From Microvirga solisilvae (lineage in GTDB: Bacteria > Pseudomonadota > Alphaproteobacteria > Rhizobiales > Beijerinckiaceae), in assembly GCF_022808595.1 (NCBI RefSeq), contig NZ_JAKUCN010000006.1, positions 1 through 64,000 of the forward strand: a stretch of 64,000 bases of DNA, written 5' to 3'. Positions 26,379 to 38,522 of the stretch are shown one piece after another; position 1 is the stretch's first letter, and each line of letters starts with the position of its first letter. Both the position numbers and the translations under genes were made by a program. The notes under the pieces are model-generated. The model saw nothing but the letters and a program-made list of their open reading frames with translations. It was not told where the DNA came from and did no database searches.

Positions 26379-26403
26379 GGAACTTTTGCCGGGTGCCTAC
26401 GTT
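26379..26403 (+). promoter_or_regulatory. Candidate EcfG (general stress sigma factor) promoter
   Basis: GGAAC at 26379-26383, a 16-nt spacer, then CGTT at 26400-26403. This is the alphaproteobacterial EcfG consensus GGAAC-N16/17-CGTT. It lies 105 bp before the kinase ATG at 26508, giving a 5' UTR of roughly 95-100 nt. No comparable pair was noticed in the other intergenic regions checked. Confidence 0.65.
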
Positions 26404-26507
26404 GAGCATGGTCGGCTTCCGTCCAGAGGTGGTGAACACACCCGTCGGCTTGCCTGACAGCAAGGGGTGCCGGGCCGTACGCCCGGGAAAGTGTTACGGG
26501 GGGCTTC

Positions 26508-29500
26508 ATGCCACAAGTTGAATCTGCCACATCGCAGCTTGATCCCAGGCTGCTGCTCAAAGTCCTGCGTGCGTTTCGGAAGGGCGACTTTTCGGTTCGC
26601 CTGCCGTCCGATTTGATCGGGATCGATGGCGAAATTGCAGAGGCTTTCAACGACATTGCCGATTTGAACCAGGGGCTCGCCAGCGAGCTCGACCGCGTTG
26701 CGAAGGTCGTGGGCAAGGAAGGCCGCATCAGCGAACGCGGCCGCCTGGATGCAGCGACAGGCTGCTGGAGCGAATGCATCAATTCCGTGAATTCCATGAT
26801 CGGCGACATCGTTCAGCCGACCGTCGAAGTGGCCCGCGTGATCGGCGCCGTGGCGAAGGGCGATCTCAGCCAGACCATCGAACTTGAGACTGAAGGCCGT
26901 CCCTTGCGCGGTGAGTTCCTGCGTATCGGTAAGGTGGTCAACACCATGGTGGGCCAGCTCGGTAGCTTTGCCTCCGAAGTGACGCGCGTGGCGCGCGAGG
27001 TGGGTTCGGAAGGTAAGCTCGGTGGTCAAGCGAAGGTGAAAGGCGTCGCAGGCACGTGGAAGGATCTCACCGACAACGTGAACCTGATGGCCGCGAACCT
27101 GACCGGCCAGGTGCGTAACATCGCCGAAGTCACCACCGCCGTCGCCATGGGTGACCTGTCGAAAAAGATCACTGTCGATGTGAAGGGTGAAATTCTTGAG
27201 CTGAAAAACACCATCAATACCATGGTGGATCAGCTCAATTCATTCGCGGGCGAAGTGACGCGCGTGGCGCGCGAGGTGGGAACCGAAGGCAAGCTCGGTG
27301 GTCAAGCGCAAGTGCGCGGCGTCGGCGGCGTCTGGAAAGACCTGACCGAGAATGTGAACATGATGGCGGCGAATCTGACGGGTCAGGTCCGTAACATCGC
27401 CGAAGTGACCACCGCCGTTGCACGCGGCGACCTATCCAAGAAGATCACCGTGGATGTAAAGGGCGAGATCCTGGCGCTCAAATCCACGATCAACACGATG
27501 GTGGACCAGCTCAATTCCTTCGCCTCCGAAGTGACCCGCGTCGCGAAGGAAGTGGGCTCCGAGGGTAAGCTCGGTGGTCAGGCGCAGGTGGAAGGCGTCG
27601 GCGGTGTCTGGCGCGATCTCACCGAGAACGTGAACATGATGGCTGCGAACCTGACAGGACAGGTGCGTAACATCGCCGAAGTGACGACCGCGGTCGCAAA
27701 CGGTGATCTATCGAAGAAGATCACCGTGGAGGTGAGGGGTGAAATTCTTGAGCTGAAGAACACCATCAATACCATGGTGGACCAGCTTAATTCCTTCGCC
27801 TCCGAAGTGACTCGCGTGGCGCGTGAGGTGGGCTCCGAGGGTAAGCTCGGTGGTCAGGCGCAGGTGCGCGGCGTGGCCGGAACGTGGAAAGACCTCACCG
27901 ACAACGTGAACCTCATGGCCGCCAATCTGACGGGCCAGGTGCGTAATATCGCGGAAGTCACGACCGCAGTCGCGAACGGCGATCTATCGAAGAAGATCAC
28001 CGTGGAAGTGCGCGGTGAAATTCTTGAGCTGAAGAATACCATCAATACCATGGTGGATCAGCTCAACTCGTTTGCAGGCGAAGTGACGCGTGTGGCGCGT
28101 GAGGTGGGCTCCGAGGGTAAGCTCGGTGGTCAGGCCCGCGTGGAAGGTGTCGCTGGTACGTGGAAGGACCTCACCGACAACGTGAACCTCATGGCTGCGA
28201 ACCTGACTGGTCAGGTCCGTAACATTGCCGAAGTCACCACCGCCGTCGCCATGGGCGACTTGTCCAAGAAGATCACCGTGGAAGTGCGCGGCGAAATTCT
28301 TGAGTTGAAGAACACCATCAACACCATGGTGGATCAGCTCAACTCGTTTGCTTCGGAAGTGACCCGTGTTGCGAAGGAAGTGGGCTCCGAGGGTAAGCTA
28401 GGCGGCCAGGCCCAGGTGCGCGGCGTGGCCGGCACGTGGAAAGACCTCACCGACAACGTGAATATGATGGCCGCAAACCTGACAGGGCAGGTACGTAACA
28501 TCGCGGAAGTCACCACGGCCGTCGCCATGGGCGACTTGTCAAAGAAGATCACCGTCGCGGTCGAGGGTGAAATTCTTGAACTGAAGAATACCATCAATAC
28601 CATGGTGGACCAGCTTAACTCCTTCGCGGGCGAGGTGACCCGTGTGGCCCGCGAAGTGGGCACGGAAGGCAAGCTCGGCGGCCAGGCCCAAGTGCGCGGC
28701 GTCGGCGGCGTCTGGAAAGACCTGACCGAGAATGTGAACATGATGGCCGCGAACCTGACCGGCCAGGTTCGTAACATCGCGGAAGTCACCACAGCGGTCG
28801 CGAACGGCGACCTGTCGAAGAAAATCACCGTGGATGTGCGCGGTGAAATCCTCGAACTCAAATCCACGATCAACACGATGGTGGACCAGCTTAACTCCTT
28901 CGCGTCGGAAGTGACCCGCGTGGCCCGTGAAGTGGGTATCGAGGGCAAACTCGGTGGTCAGGCGCAGGTGCGAGGTGTTGCCGGCACCTGGAAGGATCTC
29001 ACGGATAACGTGAACATGATGGCGAATAACCTCACCGGTCAGGTGCGCGGTATCGCCAGCGTCGTGACAGCGGTTGCAGAAGGCGACCTCAAGCGCAAGC
29101 TCACCGTGGATGCTAAGGGCGAGATCGCGGCTCTGGCCGATACGATCAACGAGATGATCGACACGCTTGCCACCTTCGCCGATCAGGTGACGAACGTGGC
29201 CCGCGAAGTGGGCGTCGAAGGAAAGCTGGGCGGCCAGGCGAGGGTGCCGGGCGCTGCCGGCCTGTGGCGCGACCTTACCGACAACGTGAACCAACTGGCC
29301 GCTAACCTCACCACGCAGGTGCGCGCCATCGCAGACGTGGCAACCGCCGTGACAAAGGGCGATCTGACCCGGTCGATCTCGGTGGAGGCATCCGGCGAGC
29401 TTGCTTCGCTGAAAGACAACGTCAACGAGATGATCCGAAACTTGCGCGATACGACGCTCAAGAATGCGGAGCAGGACTGGCTCAAGACCAATCTCGCCAA

Positions 29501-32345
29501 GTTCACGCGGATGCTGCAGGGCGAGCGCGATCTCACTACCGTCTCCAACATGATCCTGTCGGAAATCGCCCCGCTGGTGAATGCGCAGCACGGTGTATTC
29601 TATACGGTCGATACCGACGAGAGCGAGCCGATGCTCGAACTCGTGGCATCCTATGCCTTCACGGAACGCAAGCATCTCAACAATCGCTTCCGGTTGAAGG
29701 AAGGCCTCGTGGGCCAGGTGGCATATGAGAAGAAACGCATTCTCGTTGCCAATGCCCCGAGCGATTACATCAGCATCAGCTCGGCTTTGGGTGAAGCGAC
29801 GCCTCTCAACATCATCGTGCTTCCGGTTCTATTCGAGCAGGAAGTCAAGGCCGTCATCGAGCTCGCCTCGTTCAGCCGCTTCTCGGAAACGCACCAGTCG
29901 TTCCTCGACCAGCTGACGGAATCGATCGGCATCGTTCTCAATACGATCGCTGCCAACATGCGGACGGAAGGTCTGCTCAAGCAGTCTCAGCTTCTCACCA
30001 CTGAGCTGCAGAGCCAGCAGGAGGAGCTGAGGAATACCAACGATCGCCTTGAGCAGCAGGCCGCTACCCTGCGCCAGTCGGAGGAGCTCCTTCGCCAGCA
30101 GCAGGAAGCCCTGCAGAAATCCAATGAGGAACTGGAGGACAAGGCTCGCCTGCTCGAACTCCAAAAGCAGGAGGTCGAGGACAAGAACCGCGAGGTCTCC
30201 ATGGCTAAAACCGCCCTGGAGGAGAAAGCCGAGCAGCTCTCTCTCACATCGCGCTATAAGTCCCAGTTCCTGGCCAATATGAGCCACGAGCTGCGAACCC
30301 CGCTCAACTCGCTTCTGATCCTCTCAAAACTCCTCACCGAGAATCCGGATGGAAATCTGACGGACAAGCAGAAAGAGTTCTCGAAGACCATCCACGCCGC
30401 GGGTTCCGACCTTCTGGCGCTGATCAACGACATTCTTGATCTGTCGAAGATCGAATCCGGGACGGTGAGCCTGGAGGTCACGAGTGTTGGTTTCAAGGAT
30501 CTCGTGAACCACATGGAACGCACCTTCCGTCAGATCGCCGAAGAGCGGAAGCTCGACTTCCATATCGACGTCGAGCCGAACCTGCCGCCGACGATCCGTA
30601 CGGATTCGAAACGGCTCCAGCAGGTGCTCCGCAATCTTCTGTCGAACGCCTTCAAGTTCACCGAAAAAGGAGGCGTACGGTTGCAGATCGGATCGGCTGA
30701 AGGATCACCCCTGCGTGCCGGAAGCCAATGGATTTCGATTGCCGTGACGGATACCGGAATCGGTATTCCGGAAGATAAGCAGCGCATCATCTTCGAGGCC
30801 TTCCAGCAGGCCGACGGAACCACGAGTCGCAAATACGGCGGGACGGGTCTCGGCCTCTCGATCAGCCGCGAGATCGCGCGCCTTCTCGGTGGTGAGATCG
30901 TAGTGTCGAGCTCGCCGGGACAGGGTTCGACCTTCACCCTGTTCGTGCCGCTTGAGCCGCCAGCCAATCACGGTGCTCAGGCTCCGGCTGCAAACGCTCG
31001 CCCCAATGGTGGAGGAGCGGTCATCCCAGAAGAGGTTTCCACGATTCTGCGTCAGCCATCTGCTCCCATGGCACTCTCTGCATCGCTCGATGACAGGCAT
31101 GCCATCGTGTCCGGTGATCGGGTCGTCCTGATCATTGAAGATGATGCGATGTTTGCGTCCGTCCTTCTCGAGTTGGCGCGCGAGCAGGGCTTCAAGGGTC
31201 TCATCGCCATGGATGGCGCTGCTGCGTTGGCTCTCGCGCATCGCTACAAGCCGCATGCGATAACGCTCGATATCGGTCTGCCCGACATGGACGGATGGGC
31301 GCTGCTCGATTTGCTCAAGCATGATCCGCGGACCCGTCATGTGCCGATCCATGTGATCTCGGTGGATGATCAGAAGAAGCGCGGTCTCAGGGCCGGTGCC
31401 TTCGGATTCCTCGAAAAGCCGGTCGACCGTGAATCCCTGCTGACGGCGCTCAACCGCACCAAGGATTTCATCGACCGCCCGGTGAAGAAGCTGATCCTGG
31501 TCGAAGACGACGATAATCAGCGCATGAGTATCTTCGAGTTGATGAAAGGCGAAGAGGTGGATGTGACGGCTGTTGCGACGGCCGAGGAGGCGTTGGAAAC
31601 GATCCAAGCGCGCCGGTTCGATTGTGCCGTGGTTGATCTCGGACTTCCTGACCTTCCGGGAGCGGAACTCATCGAACGCATTCGTAAGACCAAGGGCGGC
31701 GAGGAACTCCCCATCGTCATTTACACCGGGCAGGATCTGAGCCGTGCGGAAGAACGCCGCCTGGAGCAGATCGCGGCGACGGTGATCCTGAAAGGTGAGG
31801 GGTCGTCCGAGCGTCTTCTCAACGATACGGCGCTCTTCCTGCACCGTTCGATCAATGCGATCCCGGAGGAGGAGCAAATCATCGTCAGTCCGAAGGGGGA
31901 GGTCGCGCTTGAAGGACATAAGGTCCTCATCATCGATGATGACATGCGCAACATCTTCTCGCTGACAAGCGCACTCGAGCAATACGGTCTCAGCGTCATC
32001 TTCGCCGAAAACGGCTTGGAGGGCATAGAGAAGCTACGGGACGCTCCAGATATTGATATCGCACTTGTCGACATCATGATGCCTGAAATGGACGGGTACG
32101 AGACCATGCGTGAAATTCGCAAGGATCCTCGTTACCGCGATCTTCCGCTGATTGCCGTCACGGCCAAGGCCATGAAAGGCGATCGGGAGAAATGTCTGGA
32201 GGCGGGTGCGACGGATTATGTCTCGAAACCTGTGGACATTGATCAACTTCTCGCGGTTTTGCGCGTTCAACTGAGTCGAAGCACCTATGTGCCTGAGGGG
32301 AAGATGCACTCCAATGGTGCAGCAGAGACCGGTCTGAGGACATGA
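26508..32345 (+). CDS. Soluble HAMP-array hybrid histidine kinase (HAMP repeats-GAF-HisKA-HATPase-3x REC)
   Basis: A 1945-residue protein with no membrane segment. After a degenerate N-terminal HAMP-like region ([30 protein letters not shown]) come nine 92-residue repeats around EGKLGGQA (about residues 150-980), a GAF domain (about 1010-1150) and a long Gln/Glu coiled coil. Then come HisKA with His1260 in NMSHELRTP, HATPase with [16 protein letters not shown] and [10 protein letters not shown], and three receivers ([30 protein letters not shown]). The closest known architecture is the fungal group III (Nik1/Os-1) osmosensor kinases and their bacterial relatives. It is translationally coupled to a second hybrid kinase and preceded by an EcfG-type promoter. 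The signal is unknown; osmotic or general stress is inferred. Confidence 0.93.
26961..29444 (+). repeat. Nine tandem 276-bp repeats encoding HAMP-pair units
   Basis: Units start at 26961 and recur every 276 bp (for example the EGKLGGQA codons at about 27004, 27280, 27556, 27832, 28108, 28384, 28660, 28936 and 29212). Units 1-8 are nearly identical at protein level and very similar in DNA; unit 9 is diverged ([28 protein letters not shown]). Two versions alternate irregularly, [12 protein letters not shown] and [12 protein letters not shown], which indicates past unequal recombination or gene conversion within the array. Confidence 0.95.
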
Positions 32346-34438
32346 TGGAACGTAGCGGACAGGGCGGGCCGGAACTGGATCTGAGGCCTCAGATCCAAGG
32401 GCGCGCCATGTCCAATCCCGTGCTTGCGAAGATATTGGTCGTTGACGACGACCCGCGCAACCTTGTTGCGGTTGAGGAGATTCTTCGGGCGCCGGGGATC
32501 GAAATTGTCACGGCGGATAGCGGCGAAGCTGCTCTCAGGCACGTCCTGAAGCATGACTTTGCCGTCATCCTGCTTGATGTACAGATGCCGCGTCTCGACG
32601 GTTACGAAGTGGCCGGGCTTATTCGTAACCGGCCCCGCTCGTCGCGTGTCCCGATCCTATTCCTCACCGCGTTCAACAAAGACGACATGCATGTCTTCCG
32701 CGGCTATTCCGCCGGCGCGGTGGACTATGTCTTCAAGCCTATCGAGCCGCTTATCTTACGCTCGAAGGTCGACGTGTTTGTCGATCTGTATCGCAAGACG
32801 GAGGAGATCCGACGGCAGGGCGAGGAGGAGCGTCGCCTTCTCATGGAGAACCTGAGGGTCCGTAGCGAAAAGCTCAAAACTGAACAGGCTCTCCGCCGCC
32901 GAGAGGAGCATCAATCCATCGTTCTGGAATCGCTGCCGATTGCCCTCTACACCGCTTCGGTCGCGGAAGATCATCGCCAGCTTCACTTCACGAACGAGAG
33001 TATCGAACGCATCACGGGCTTTCCGCCCAAGGCCTTTCTGGAATCCCCCGATTTCTGGTCGTCACGTCTCCACCCGGATGACAGCGAACGTGTGCTGAGT
33101 CAGCTCAAGGAGCTGACAAACCAGGGAGCTGTGACTCTGGAATATCGGTGGAGATGTGCGGATGGCACGGAGCGCTACTTCCTCGACCAGACGATGTTGA
33201 TGCATGATGACGAAGGGCGCCCGCGCGAATTCTTCGGTATGTGGTTCGACATCACTGAGCGCAAGCAGATGGAGCAGAACTTGCTCCATGCCAGTAAGCT
33301 CGAGGCGGTGGGACGTTTGACGGGCGGCATCGCGCATGACTTCAACAACATGCTGAGCGTCGTCATCGGAAATCTCGATCTTCTGCAGAAAACCATCAAG
33401 GGGAATGCAAAGGCGGAGCCCAGAGTCCGGATGGCTATGGAGGGCGCACAGCGTTGTGCGGATCTCACCCACAGGCTCCTGGCCTTCTCGCGCCGCCAGC
33501 CCCTGCAGGTTTCCGTTATCGATGTCGGAGCCTTAATGCCTGGCCTTTTGGAGCTGATGCGCCGTACGCTCGGCGAGCGCGTCAACGTCAATTTGGACCT
33601 TTCCGATAAGGTTTATCCGATCGAGGTTGATCGTGCGCAGCTTGAGGCTGCTCTTCTAAACCTCGCAGTCAATGCGCGGGATGCAATGCCGGAAGGAGGC
33701 GACCTGTCGATCTCTATTGGTACGCAAAGGCTGGATGAGAAAGTCGAGAATCCTGGCGAGTTTGTCCTGATCACGGTTCGTGACACAGGAACTGGCATGC
33801 CTCCGGAAGTGCTCCAGCGTGTGTTCGAGCCATTCTTTACGACCAAGGAGAGCGGCAAGGGAACCGGTCTAGGTCTTTCCATGGTTTATGGTTTTGTTCA
33901 GCAATCCCACGGCCATGTGGAAATCGATAGCATTCCCAATGAAGGAACGACTATCCGCATCTTCCTGCCTCGGGCTCACGGAGTGGCAAATAGCCTAAGC
34001 GAAAAGCAGATTTTAGATGCGAAACCCTTCGGGGCCGGACAGACAGTTCTAGTCGTTGAAGACAACCCGGCTGTCAGGCAGGTCGCGATCTCAACCCTTA
34101 GATCGCTGGGTTTCGATGTGATTGAGGCGGAAACGGGCGATGAGGCCGCGCGCTTGCTGAAGGCCAATAATCGGGTGCGCTTGGTTCTCTCCGATGTGCG
34201 AATGCCGGGCGGGCTCAGCGGCATCGATCTCGCGCGGATGATCCGGGACGAGAAGCCCGATATTCAGGTGCTTCTCACCACAGGTTATGTGGATGGCGAA
34301 GAAACGATCGAGGATGTCGATCTCCTCTATAAGCCTTATCGCGCGACGGATCTTGCCGAGAAAATCCAGGCTCTTCTGGAAAGGCCGCAGCTGCTTAACG
34401 GAAACGTCCTCCCCATGTTGGCTGCCGCATCCGCTTAA
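32342..34438 (+). CDS. Hybrid histidine kinase with N- and C-terminal receiver domains (REC-PAS-HisKA-HATPase-REC)
   Basis: A 698-residue soluble protein. REC1 (about 30-145: [22 protein letters not shown]) is followed by a short coiled coil and a PAS/PAC pair (about 190-310, ending [12 protein letters not shown]). The dimerisation domain has its phospho-His in [12 protein letters not shown], then comes HATPase ([34 protein letters not shown]). The last part is REC2 ([20 protein letters not shown]). Its ATG overlaps the upstream kinase's TGA (ATGA), so translation is coupled and the two should act together, perhaps with REC1 taking phosphate from the HAMP-array kinase. A second start at 32408 ([14 protein letters not shown]) is also possible. 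Confidence 0.9.
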
Positions 34439-34461: not shown

Positions 34462-35049
34462 ATGATGAGCGAAAATCAGGATATTGTTTTCCTCGACTTC
34501 GAAGCCTCATCGCTCGGCAAGGAAAGTTATCCGATCGAAGTTGCATGGGTCTTCGCCTCTGGGGGAGAAGAAAGCTACCTCATCAAACCGCCGGATTTCT
34601 GGACGGATTGGGATCCAGCAGCGGAGGCGACACATCGCCTGACACGTGAAGAAATCATATCCGAAGGCACGCCGCATGACGACGTCGCAAGGCGCATGCT
34701 GAAGGTTCTTGCAGGACATTCTCTTTATGCCACCGCTCCCTCCTGGGACGGGCAGTGGCTCAGCAAGTTATTACGCGGGGCTGGGTTACCTCGTCACGCC
34801 TTACGTCTAGAAGACACGGACGTTGCGCACGCGAACGCGATCATAAAGATCTTGCGGGGGGCTGGGATCGCGGAAAGCGATCATGCGCGGCTAGCAAAGG
34901 ATATTCTTGCGCAAGCTCGCTTGAAAGATGAAGACCAAGGCGATCCCGCTCATCGTGCTCTTGCAGATACCAAGCGTGAACTCGGTATCTGGCGGGATGT
35001 ACAGATACGCGCGCATGAATACGTGCGAAGCCACAAACCATCGGCCTGA
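34462..35049 (+). CDS. DEDDh-type 3'-5' exonuclease (RNase T/DnaQ-like)
   Basis: A 195-residue protein with the exonuclease fold: motif I FLDFEASSLG (Asp and Glu), a middle acidic site around YATAPSWDGQWL, and motif III HRALADTKREL, with the His and Asp spaced as in DEDDh nucleases. The substrate (DNA or RNA) is unknown. It starts 23 bp after the second hybrid kinase and may be the last gene of that operon, although a signalling role is not obvious. Confidence 0.75.
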   Translation: MMSENQDIVFLDFEASSLGKESYPIEVAWVFASGGEESYLIKPPDFWTDWDPAAEATHRLTREEIISEGTPHDDVARRMLKVLAGHSLYATAPSWDGQWLSKLLRGAGLPRHALRLEDTDVAHANAIIKILRGAGIAESDHARLAKDILAQARLKDEDQGDPAHRALADTKRELGIWRDVQIRAHEYVRSHKPSA

Positions 35050-35078: not shown

Positions 35079-35756
35079 TCAGGCTTCGAGACGCTGGAGA
35101 GCAGCCTTGTCGCGCAGGACGATGGAACGGCGGTGGGCCGGGAGCTCGATGACGCCCTGACGCTCAAGCTGGGTCAACGAGCGGGATACCGTCTCGATGG
35201 TGAGACCCAGATGGTCGGCAATATCGATGCGCGACATGGGCAGATCGACATGACCATCTTCTGTCAGGCGTTCCGACAGAACGAGCAGGAAGGTGGCGAT
35301 CTTTTCAAGTGCGTGCTTGCGGCCAAGCAGCAGCATATGATCCTGAGCGCGTTCGAGAGCGCGCATCGTGGAGGCGATCACCTGATTGGCAAAAGCCTGA
35401 TCGCGGGTTGCGAGAACTTCCAGGCTGCAACGGCGATAGGCAATGATGGTGGCATCGCCCAGTGCCTCGGCGCTGAAGCGATGCTCATCGCCCGATTCAA
35501 GGCCGAAAATGTCGCCCGGAAGGTGAAAGGCATCGATCTGGCGGCGTCCGTCGCTGAGAAGCTTGAAAGTGCGCACCGCACCGGAGACGACCTTGTAGAA
35601 GTAAGCAGCCCGATCCCCTTCGGCGAAGACTTCCTCGTCCTTGGCCACTGTCCGGGTGGTGCCGAGTTCCGGAGTATTGCGCGAAGCGGTGGGCGTGCGG
35701 AGGAGCGCAGCATTCGGGATGGACTGGGTGTTGAGGGAAGCCTGCGCGGTGTGCAT
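35079..35756 (-). CDS. fixK: FixK-type Crp/Fnr-family transcriptional activator
   Basis: About 225 residues from the preferred ATG at 35756. A cyclic-nucleotide-like domain (VFAEGDRAAYFYKVVSGAVR, FHLPGDIFGLE) is followed by a long dimer helix and a winged HTH (MSRIDIADHLGLTIETVSRSLTQLERQG). The N-terminal cysteines of FNR are absent, so it should not bind an Fe-S cluster; this is the FixK pattern. The recognition helix ETVSRSL fits the TTGAT-N4-RTCAA boxes found upstream of ccoN, ccoG, hemN and the receiver gene. It lies beside fixLJ, which normally drives it. A TTG at 35822 gives a longer form with a poorer ribosome site. Confidence 0.88.
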   Translation of the reverse strand: MHTAQASLNTQSIPNAALLRTPTASRNTPELGTTRTVAKDEEVFAEGDRAAYFYKVVSGAVRTFKLLSDGRRQIDAFHLPGDIFGLESGDEHRFSAEALGDATIIAYRRCSLEVLATRDQAFANQVIASTMRALERAQDHMLLLGRKHALEKIATFLLVLSERLTEDGHVDLPMSRIDIADHLGLTIETVSRSLTQLERQGVIELPAHRRSIVLRDKAALQRLEA

Positions 35757-35870
35757 CGGAACTCTCGTCGTTGGTTCGTGTCTGACGTGAGCCCAGAGGT
35801 AGCCTGACGCTGCGGAGGGCAAAATTCAGATGCTCTCCTAAGGGATATCCCTGATGCCGGCTGGAAATTG

Positions 35871-36251
35871 TCAGGCCGGAGTGCCGAGGGCTCCCCGGAT
35901 GCTGTCGAGCAAAGTGCTGTCTTCCAAAGGTTTTTCAATGACTTGGCGGAATCCGGAGCGGGCGGCGCGCTTGCGCATATCATCCGTAATCCGGGCAGTG
36001 ATCAGGATCGCCGGAAGCTTGACCAGACGTCGTCGGAGCCTGTCCATCAGCTCGACCCCGTTCATGGAGGGCATGTAGTAATCGACAACCAAGCAGCCGT
36101 CTTCGGGCAGGTTCTGTTCGGCCAGCAGTTCGGCGCCGCTCTCATAGAGGCGCACGTTCATCCCCTCGAGCTCGAGGGCGAACTTCAATGATTGTCGAAC
36201 GGCGGCATCGTCGTCCACGACGATAACCGGCCCTGGTGTGATGGACATCAT
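35871..36251 (-). CDS. Single-domain response regulator, possible FixT-type feedback protein
   Basis: A 126-residue stand-alone receiver. The acidic pocket VVDDDAAVRQS, the phospho-acceptor Asp57 in CLVVDYYMPSMNG, Thr in LITAR and Lys in IEKPLED are all present, so it should accept phosphate. It sits between fixJ and fixK on the same strand and has its own FixK-type box 70 bp upstream. In Caulobacter a FixK-activated single-domain receiver, FixT, inhibits FixL and binds an Fe-S cluster. This protein has only one cysteine, so it could share the feedback role but probably not that cofactor. AGGA lies just before the ATG. Confidence 0.85.
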   Translation of the reverse strand: MMSITPGPVIVVDDDAAVRQSLKFALELEGMNVRLYESGAELLAEQNLPEDGCLVVDYYMPSMNGVELMDRLRRRLVKLPAILITARITDDMRKRAARSGFRQVIEKPLEDSTLLDSIRGALGTPA

Positions 36252-36314
36252 CAGGTCCTAAAGGCCCCTGGGTTTGGATTAGGGGAAACGTAATCCAATT
36301 TGAGAAGGGAGGGC

Positions 36315-36328
36315 TTGATATGGGTCAA
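36315..36328 (-). promoter_or_regulatory. FixK/FNR-type box upstream of the single-domain receiver
   Basis: TTGATATGGGTCAA matches TTGAT-N4-RTCAA. The centre is 70.5 bp before the receiver ATG at 36251. With the usual -41.5 geometry, transcription would begin near 36280, leaving a 29-nt leader, the same spacing seen for ccoG. Confidence 0.75.
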
Positions 36329-36376
36329 CCCCCAGCATTCTGAAACCTCAGGAATAGTCCTTAAGGGCTACCGGAT

Positions 36377-36991
36377 TTACGATCGCACGCCCACGAGGAG
36401 GGCCATGCGCACCAACTCGGAGAGACTGGAAGCCTGCATCTTCGTCATCACGTTCGCACGATAGATCTCAACCGTGCGCGGGCTGATGCCGAGATCGTAT
36501 GCAATCACTTTATTAGCCTTGCCGGCAACGAGGCCTTCAAGCACTTGGCTCTCGCGTTCCGACAGGGCTCCGACACGGGCTCGAACCTCGGCCGCATGGG
36601 CATCCTGGTGCGCATGTTTCTCTTGCTGCTTTAGAGCAGCCCTTACGGCGGCTAGGAAAAGATCGTCATCGAACGGCTTCTCGATGAAATCGATAGCCCC
36701 TTCCTTCATGGCTTCCACCGCAAGCGGCACATCTGCGTGCCCTGTCATGACGATGACGGGCAAGGTGAAGCCCCGGCTTTTCAGGCGACGGAGGAACTCG
36801 ATGCCGTCGATCCCCGGCATTCTCACATCCGTCACGATGCATCCGTCAGGAGAAGTCGTGACGCTGTCCAGGAAGGCGGAAGCCGACTCGTGGAGGCGCA
36901 CCGGCAAGCCGTCCGAGGCGAGCAGGAATGACAGCGATTGGCGCACCGCCAGATCATCATCCACCACATGCACGATCGCTTCACTCGGCAT
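36377..36991 (-). CDS. fixJ: FixJ response regulator (REC plus LuxR-type HTH)
   Basis: A 204-residue NarL/FixJ-family regulator. The receiver holds [16 protein letters not shown], phospho-Asp in [13 protein letters not shown] and IEKPFDDD. The C-terminal HTH has [40 protein letters not shown] (in several short blocks, about 138-178), a near-consensus FixJ recognition region. Phosphorylated by FixL under low oxygen, it should activate fixK. AGGAGG lies upstream, and the gene overlaps the end of fixL by 11 bp. Confidence 0.93.
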
Positions 36992-38522
36992 TCGCTAACT
37001 CCTCCTGACTGACACTACGCAGCGTAAACCGGAACGTCGTGCCCCGGCCTACTTCCGACTCGATCCAAATCTTTCCGCCATGGGATTCGACAATGGTTCG
37101 GCAGATTGAAAGCCCTACACCCATGCCGTGTTTCTTCGTCGTGACGAAGGGCTGGAAGAGCTTTTCGAGAACCTCCGGTTCGATGCCGGTGCCGGTATCG
37201 GCCACGCTGATTTCCACGAGCCCATCTATCGGCAATGCATGCGTCGCGATCACCATTTCACGGCGCGGTTCGTCCTGCATGGCCTCGATGGCGTTGCGGA
37301 TAAGATTGAGAAGCACCTGTTGAATCTGGATTCGATCCGCCAGAACGAGAGGAGCGTTGGGATCGAACTCATATGTGACGCGCACGCCCTTTTCCCGCGC
37401 GCCGACAAGGGCGAGGGCGCTGGCTTCCTGAACGAGCTTGGGCAGGCTTTCGATGTGGCGTTCGCTTTCGCCCCTGGCTACGAATTCACGCAGATGACGG
37501 ATGACTTGGCCTGCGCGCAGGGCCTGCTCGGCGGCCTGATTGACGGCGCCTTCGAGCATCGGGACATCCTGTCCTTCCATCCGCTGAAGAATTCGCCGGC
37601 AGCCCTTCAGATAGTTCGCGATGGCGGTAAGCGGCTGGTTGATCTCGTGTGCCAGAGTCGAGGCCATTTCGCCGAGAGCGGTGAAGCGCGACATGTGCAC
37701 GAGCTCCGACTGCAATTCTTGCAAACGGGCTTCCGTTCTTTGGCGTTCCGTCAGATCGCGGATGAAACCGGTGAAATAGCGCTGGCCGCCCGAGCGCATC
37801 TCACCGACGGCAAGCTCGATGGGGAAGGTGGAGCCATCCTTGCTTTGGCCCACTACCACGCGGCCGATGCCGATAATCCGGCGCTCGCCCGTAGTGAGAT
37901 AGCGATGCATGTAACCGTCATGCTGGTCCCGATACGGGTTCGGCATGAGGATCTTGATATTCTTGCCGATGATCTCGCGGTCCCTATAGCCGAACAGGCG
38001 CTCGGCGGCGGCGCTGAAGAACTGGATTCGCGCCTGCTCGTCGATAACGATCATGGCATCCGGTACTGTTTCCAGGATGGAACGCAGATGCGCTTCTCGG
38101 GTTCTCAATGCCTCCTCGGCAGCGACACGCTCCGTGATGTCGCGCATGACCTTGGCATAGCCGAGAAGTTCGCCAGTCTCATTCCTCAAGGTCGTGAGGC
38201 TGACATTGGCAATGAAGCTGGATCCATCCTTACGCAGGCGGACGCCCTGTTCTTCATAGCGCCCTGTGTCACGAGCGATCTCAAGCTCGCGGGAAGCCTT
38301 GCCGTTTTCGAGATCCTCGGGCGTGTGAAAGATGGAGAAGTGACGCCCGCGAATCTCGTCCTTGCCCCATCCGCCGATATGCTCGGCACCGGTGTTCCAG
38401 CTGATGATTCTTCCTTCAGTGTCGAGCATGCAGATCGCATAGTCCGTGACTGCGTCGACCAGGAGTTGAAAACTGATATCCTGCTGCGAAAGGGAAGAAG
38501 GGACAAGGGCCGAGGCAGTCAA
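36981..38522 (-). CDS. fixL: FixL oxygen-sensing histidine kinase (two PAS domains, haem-binding second PAS)
   Basis: A 513-residue soluble kinase. PAS-A is at about 15-130. PAS-B (about 145-260) carries the FixL haem signature: His201 in [11 protein letters not shown], followed by [13 protein letters not shown] and ending [13 protein letters not shown]. The dimerisation domain has phospho-His292 in [13 protein letters not shown], and the ATPase has [17 protein letters not shown] and [13 protein letters not shown]. Bradyrhizobium FixL places its proximal haem His at the same motif. Oxygen on the haem should inhibit the kinase. The start is a TTG with GGAG six bases upstream. No membrane segment is present, unlike Sinorhizobium FixL. 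Confidence 0.93.

Follow-up and report, generated by a model that had tools for sequence, protein, structure and literature searches.

A 64,000-nucleotide stretch of the Microvirga solisilvae genome (contig NZ_JAKUCN010000006.1, positions 1 to 64,000; referred to here as the window) contains two adjoining genes, named P1 and P2, which encode soluble hybrid histidine kinases and which we propose, with a probability of roughly 0.6, to form a two-tier signalling chain that is encoded as one operon and controlled by the general stress response. The proposal is built on sequence analysis: the two genes have an operon-like layout, the catalytic residues are present, the promoter in front of the pair is conserved, and kinases with a HAMP array such as that of P1 are constantly adjoined by a kinase which, like P2, starts with a receiver domain (REC-first). 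The pair is real and conserved, and the broader regularity of such pairing looks worth testing.

Architecture of the P1-P2 pair

The first-pass annotation of this DNA had described a large HAMP-array kinase joined by an ATGA overlap to a REC-PAS-kinase-REC protein, and this arrangement was confirmed (Table 1). The genes are adjacent on the same strand, P2 has a receiver followed by a kinase core, and a GAGGA located a few bases 5' of its start codon is a candidate ribosome site. The count of five receivers and two kinases likewise held, as all five acceptor aspartates, a catalytic histidine in each protein and two G boxes in each were identified.

For P1, the annotated length of 1945 residues, the GAF domain, the three receivers and the soluble character were borne out, while the 'nine HAMP repeats' proved to be an under-count of about ten 92-residue units. 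Pfam reports nine PF00672 HAMP and ten PF18947 HAMP_2 stretches, followed by GAF, HisKA, HATPase and three receiver domains. The period of 92 residues is evident from a GDL motif that recurs at this distance from residue 215 to 951, with an additional copy at 118, and from nine second-half motifs between residues 163 and 899; tblastn gave 11 unit matches. When the two halves of the unit were compared as profiles, to see if the second half might be a HAMP domain too, only the stretch common to the overlapping cuts could be aligned. For the beginning of the array a related structure has been solved, since PDB entry 9trk, which like 9trj is a histidine kinase fused to Gcn4p, matches P1 residues 6-291 with 431 bits. 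Hydropathy, the only measure used here, gave no sign of a membrane segment in either protein, with 19-residue maxima of 1.69 for P1, where receiver 1 begins, and of 1.47 for P2. P1 therefore has what defines group III poly-HAMP kinases: at least five HAMP repeats in the N-terminal half, a kinase core followed by one or more receivers, and, as judged from hydropathy, no transmembrane segment.

The best solved structures for the P2 kinase core are 5idj (a histidine kinase), 5idm (CckA), 3d36 (sporulation kinase B) and 8vc9 (LvrB). The NCBIfam models for CckA score 341.9 and 325.4 bits, below their cut-off of 1000, and, for the pair, those for LvrA and LvrB stay at 253 (cut-off 1200) and 132.6 bits (cut-off 500). 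P2 is not an HWE kinase, as Pfam assigns HisKA and HATPase_c and no PF07536 HWE_HK.

Conservation of the pair in relatives

The closest named relatives of P2 are from Microvirga, with up to 90% identity. Conserved co-occurrence of the two kinases, which the first-pass annotation had put forward as one way to check the pair, was found: in a family sample of 248 genomes P2 was detected in 15 (E ≤ 1e-125), P1 lies directly upstream by coordinates in 15/15, and the 15 P1 matches of at least 74% identity belong to these same genomes. Among the 15 members of the genus in this sample, the genome of the window included, nine have the pair and six have neither gene. A class sample of 385 genomes yielded P2 matches in 11 (E ≤ 1e-110), seven of which (G000, G294, G426, G481, G556, G602 and G642) have P1 directly upstream. 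In G350 a contig edge ends the locus, and the weaker P2 matches in G372, G592 and G604 (39-45% identity) have no adjacent P1 that could be seen.

HAMP-array kinases and their REC-first partners

In other genera, P1-like kinases, whose kinase region is about 50% identical, for the most part have no P2 orthologue downstream and possess another kinase in this position, hereafter slot 2. We scanned the neighbourhood of 120 loci and counted as array kinases those with at least three array units. A REC-first kinase is located directly downstream in 98/98 array loci (the window and 97 others), and the partner's nearest possible start is found between -16 and +19 bases from the P1 stop, with the exception of L260 at +208; as these distances run to the nearest possible start codon, they lean short. 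From the 22 array-less rows two were set aside, L142, in which the P2 gene itself was matched, and L262, whose contig starts inside P1 and which does have a partner; none of the remaining 20 has a REC-first neighbour (Fisher p=5e-23 for 98/98 vs 0/20, relatedness being ignored). A second batch of 20 loci added partners in 6/6 with and 1/14 without an array. Combined, and with three rows set aside, a REC-first kinase is found downstream in 104/104 array loci vs 1/34 array-less ones. Among 14 earlier loci that were checked later, 13 are P1 fragments with array units, and all 13 have the partner; at L170 there is no room downstream to show one.

These numbers have to be read with their sampling. 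All scan rows with a frame of at least 1800 residues were fetched, except nine with P2 adjoining by coordinates, and the 34 array-less rows are our own choice from a larger number (80 rows, mostly shorter frames, in one listing alone). The array-less kinases are distant paralogues (42-48% identity), so that the comparison controls for hybrid kinases in general and does not address recent array loss. The 98 array loci represent about 37 genera, with 26 loci from Microvirga and 13 from Methylobacterium or Methylorubrum, and all belong to the Alphaproteobacteria except two loci from one family of another class. The pairing of array kinase and REC-first kinase looks, from these sequences, apparently obligate.

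The kinase in slot 2 is not constant in class. It is of the HisKA type in 79/98 and of the HWE type in 19/98 loci; with the six added array loci, five of which have HWE, the totals are 80 and 24. The HWE label was assigned by Pfam for L150, L152 and L159 and by a model built from these three for the others. In a quickly built tree of 73 P1 sequences, the slot-2 class must have changed three times or more, and starred branches force two of these changes. The N-terminal receivers of the partners, by comparison, have kept the acceptor aspartate and the first acidic residue in 98/98. In one relative (L145:4719-5417, in G642) a gene for a LuxR-type response regulator overlaps the end of the P2 relative and is a candidate exit there.

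A predicted EcfG-type promoter ahead of P1 and P2

The GGAAC-N16-CGTT motif that had been annotated ahead of both genes was confirmed and sits 129 bases before the ATG of P1. As the whole genome has 64 such matches vs 34 for the reversed motif, the single match in the window means little by itself. We therefore scanned 42 loci with a readable P1 start, leaving out those with an unreadable P1 N-terminus and omitting 16 that were duplicate contigs under two ids. The exact motif is located 122-132 bases before the ATG in 24/42 loci, all of which are among the 28 rows of the Microvirga clade (27 Microvirga, window included, and strain YIM 77505), where 24/28 have it; this supports an EcfG promoter under evolutionary constraint. 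In 200 mononucleotide shuffles of the 42 upstream regions a mean of 0.15 and a maximum of 2/42 had the motif. Invariance of the motif among the 24 loci follows from the choice of the set; with a mean pairwise identity of 0.36 in the spacer and 0.32 in the 40 bases upstream, however, recent common descent does not account for the match. When 84 array-kinase loci of a wider set were scanned from -400 to +250 of the frame opening, the motif was present in 36/84 and the reversed motif in 2/84, and 14 of the 36 are outside the Microvirga/YIM 77505 clade; two of six array loci added later (L264 and L265) also have it.

Genes for PhyR, NepR and EcfG adjoin one another in this genome (L161), and the stretch separating phyR from nepR has the motif in either orientation; 8 of the 64 EcfG-type motifs of the genome are clustered in the 5.5 kb around these genes (G000:C2:59316-64784). 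Both a motif conserved in relatives and the genes for the three regulators, as would be expected of an EcfG regulon member, are therefore in place, and P1-P2 is very probably under EcfG control in Microvirga. That the motif is a chance match, as the background of 34 reversed matches against 64 might still allow, is highly improbable given its near-constant place in the Microvirga clade over a drifting spacer and its recurrence in distant lineages.

As a separate observation, a block with the consensus GGTCGAATTCCATC is conserved just after the -10 element in the leaders of the 24 motif-bearing loci. In 21/28 leaders of the Microvirga clade the best stem is found at about -45 to -20, in CCAGGC/GCCTGG or CCGGGC/GCCCGG forms, and the best-stem score has a mean of 6.57 vs 5.75 for shuffles (maximum 6.27). 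In the window the stem CCGGGC-n5-GCCCGG was picked by eye, the stem script having put another one ahead of it, and the window leader has no match in Rfam.

Comparison with known systems

The first-pass annotation did not recognize two adjoining soluble hybrid kinases in one alphaproteobacterial operon with an EcfG promoter as a described set-up. Novelty of the arrangement is not supported, since published precedents exist. In Myxococcus xanthus the poly-HAMP hybrid kinase gene askB (MXAN_6735) is immediately followed by askC (MXAN_6734), which encodes another hybrid kinase (PMC7643160), and the arrangement of P1 and P2 is thus known in kind. Compared by description only, both systems consist of a soluble group III poly-HAMP hybrid kinase and a downstream hybrid kinase. 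Partial SpoIIID-like matches over the HAMP array have been reported for Ask (PMC7643160), and P1 also scores against PF12116 SpoIIID, with 40.9 bits for the whole protein and no single significant stretch. AskA, AskB and AskC bind one another, with receiver 3 of AskA contacting the AskC receiver (PMC7643160). A difference lies in the targets of the Ask proteins, which are MrpC and FruA and belong to development (PMC7643160). Predicted EcfG control further sets P1-P2 apart, as EcfG has been described as exclusive to alphaproteobacteria (PMC3892343).

A second precedent is LvrA-LvrB, in which LvrA phosphorylates the receiver of LvrB and raises its autokinase activity (PMC5863495); structures of LvrB show a REC-gated switch (PMC13269768). 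As with P1-P2, the genes are adjacent, both proteins are soluble and lack a DNA-binding domain, and a hybrid kinase is followed by a REC-first gated kinase. The systems differ in that LvrA has PAS instead of a HAMP array and a second kinase core, and in that LvrB, from another phylum, has neither a PAS domain nor a C-terminal receiver. Phosphorylation of a REC-first kinase by another kinase within the alphaproteobacterial general stress response, as we suggest for P1-P2, has been described for KipF-PakF of Sphingomonas melonis (cited in PMC5863495).

The proposed link to fungal Nik1-type osmosensors stands for the architecture and does not extend beyond resemblance. P1 shares with the fungal group III kinases (Nik1/TcsC) the poly-HAMP array, the lack of a membrane segment, the histidine kinase and the receiver (PMC7643160), and differs from them by its GAF domain, its three receivers and its partner kinase; the likeness is one of architecture only. 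In fungi, fungicides and antifungal natural products act through HAMP-array kinases, whose own stimulus is still unsettled. With its fixed partner, phosphorelay residues and predicted stress promoter, a bacterial form would be a tractable two-protein system for studying cue and signal route.

Titles and displayed abstracts of the papers listed in our searches of open-access literature, which leaves most subscription journals outside, contained no description of the pair in Microvirga or Methylobacterium, nor of the general pairing, the exchange of slot-2 kinases or the EcfG promoter of such modules. What appears to be new here is the apparently obligate pairing, the changing class of the slot-2 kinase and the recurrent EcfG promoter.

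Proposed signalling chain and alternatives

We propose that, under stress, PhyR would free EcfG from NepR, and that EcfG would then transcribe P1-P2 and set the dose of both proteins. P1 would act as a soluble sensor, in which the HAMP array and the GAF domain respond to an intracellular cue and switch the HisKA kinase. The phosphoryl group may then pass to the receivers of P1 itself and to the N-terminal receiver of P2, the putative input port, which would gate the P2 kinase through the linker and the PAS domain. P2, in turn, might phosphorylate a regulator or a phosphotransferase encoded elsewhere, with its C-terminal receiver serving as a relay or a sink. In this scheme we infer the co-transcription of P1 and P2, the phosphotransfer and its direction, the cue and the exit. 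A constant port with a changing kinase class behind it fits a relay better than two independent kinases, and the data are consistent with the earlier suggestion of a phosphorelay node that feeds a remote target.

A number of observations weigh against this proposal or restrict its range. In the promoter scan, L044 and L047 have the motif with one mismatch, at -134 and -131, respectively, and the Microvirga loci L078 and L102 lack it; so does L147, also from Microvirga, in the wider 84-locus scan, and the motif is missing from all 14 rows outside the Microvirga clade (13 Methylobacterium/Methylorubrum and Tistlia). Stress control would hence be separable from the module, and the EcfG promoter, annotated as part of the set-up, stands as such for Microvirga and fails for the 13 Methylobacterium/Methylorubrum orthologues; predicted EcfG control does not extend to Methylobacterium, and the module does not always include it. 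The contrast between array and array-less loci is weakened by L277 (G689:C30), the sole exception among the 34, where an array-less P1-like kinase is followed after 211 bases by a REC-kinase-REC gene. Some Microvirga genomes (L034, L039, L040, L043 and L077) also have extra P2-like genes without P1, which are 75-79% identical; the one in L034 is followed by an apparent insertion sequence (IS) transposase, named by eye. The conserved receiver lysine is replaced by valine in 44/98 slot-2 N-terminal receivers, including 17 of the 19 in front of an HWE kinase; this change, seen in L148, L150, L157 and their relatives, suggests that the port of this clade may not use ordinary phosphorylation. It does not occur in P2 of the window or in its Microvirga and Methylobacterium relatives. 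Finally, its PAS domain could make P2 an independent sensor.

P1 and P2 might instead function as a scaffold, forming a stable complex through receiver-receiver contacts in which P2 inhibits or licenses P1 without taking phosphate. The contact of AskA receiver 3 with the AskC receiver, seen by two-hybrid analysis, and the high-nanomolar to micromolar binding among AskA, AskB and AskC (PMC7643160) provide a model for this, a fixed gene pair fits co-assembly, and the valine change in the partner receivers points the same way; a pure scaffold, however, would not need the acceptor aspartate, which is kept in 98/98 N-terminal receivers and in all five receivers of the window, and we regard this explanation as unlikely. 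Only a little less doubtful is a different exit for the chain, in which P2 is CckA-like and feeds ChpT and then CtrA, so that P1 would adjust cell-cycle progression or development when the cell is stressed, with a target other than PhyR. CckA, ChpT and CtrA form a known phosphotransfer route, and P2 matches both the CckA models, below their cut-offs as given above, and the CckA structure 5idm (118.6 bits). P2 nevertheless matches 159 NCBIfam models, which makes its resemblance to CckA unspecific, and slot 2 is occupied by HWE kinases in other lineages.

More credible than either, but still short of an even chance, is that the output of P1-P2 converges on PhyR, which would close a feedback loop in which the pair is made under the general stress response and also feeds into it. 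This reading extends the two-tier chain proposed above into a stronger claim. It is favoured by the EcfG promoter upstream and by the HWE kinases in slot 2 (19/98 pairs and 5/6 more), as HWE is, together with HisKA2, the class that mainly activates PhyR (PMC6599016), which renders PhyR an attractive exit for pairs with an HWE kinase. A HisKA kinase of Caulobacter that feeds PhyK and PhyR through MrrA (PMC5964349) also favours the loop. On the other side, P2 of the window is a CckA-like HisKA kinase, not HWE, and EcfG control of a kinase is no proof that it feeds back. The bacterial pair would also predict which genomes wire it to PhyR. Taking these considerations together, it might be speculated that P1-P2 represents a widespread, unnamed two-gene general-stress module of alphaproteobacteria, in which an array sensor always comes with a REC-gated kinase, a fixed port is combined with exchanged HisKA or HWE kinases to reach different stress exits including PhyR, and EcfG frequently controls the dose; in bacteria it would be the equivalent of Nik1, perhaps responsive to the same soil antifungals. 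We consider this joint reading tentative and, as a whole, somewhat improbable.

Other features of the locus

Table 1. Positions of the P1-P2 genes, their domains and their upstream elements in the window.
Feature	Position	Strand	Basis or remark
EcfG-type promoter GGAAC-N16-CGTT	26379..26403	+	exact motif, conservation in relatives
P1 leader	26404..26507	+	predicted transcription start ~26410; conserved block after -10 element
Leader stem-loop CCGGGC-n5-GCCCGG, 5' of Shine-Dalgarno	26470..26486	+	by eye
P1, soluble poly-HAMP hybrid histidine kinase, 1945 aa	26508..32345	+	open reading frame, Pfam, residue check
P1 HAMP array, ~ten 92-residue units, approximate limits	26583..29508	+	Pfam, motif spacing, PDB 9trk match
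P1 GAF domain, PF13185, residues 1006-1144	29523..29939	+	Pfam
P1 HisKA and HATPase, His1260 in SHELRTPL	30258..30956	+	Pfam, residue check
P1 receiver 1, Asp1588, approximate limits	31122..31472	+	
P1 receiver 2, Asp1710, approximate limits	31482..31832	+	
P1 receiver 3, Asp1855	31923..32261	+	
P2, REC-PAS-HisKA-HATPase-REC kinase, 698 aa	32342..34438	+	start overlaps P1 stop (ATGA)
P2 N-terminal receiver, Asp79, proposed input port	32432..32770	+	Pfam
P2 PAS domain, PF08447	32987..33235	+	Pfam
P2 HisKA and HATPase, CckA-like, His332 in AHDFNN	33311..33976	+	Pfam, NCBIfam, residue check
P2 C-terminal receiver, Asp618	34040..34384	+	

Downstream of P2, a frame of 195 residues (34462-35049) without a Pfam match is located near the pair only in seven close Microvirga relatives. 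It is followed, at 35079-38522, by convergent genes for fixL, fixJ, a single-domain receiver and a CRP-type regulator, which adjoin a FixG/COX1 respiratory cluster. The absence of an adjoining gene for a DNA-binding output, as initially annotated, therefore does not apply strictly to the window, where the CRP-type regulator (35079-35822) and fixJ (36377-36991), with fixL, are convergent and about 0.6-4 kb from the pair; it stands in so far as no more than six close Microvirga relatives (L031, L032, L033, L056, L058 and L097) were found to have the CRP-type gene next to the pair. FixLJ and the CRP-type regulator were considered as the output of P1-P2 and rejected, since the pair persists elsewhere without this neighbour.

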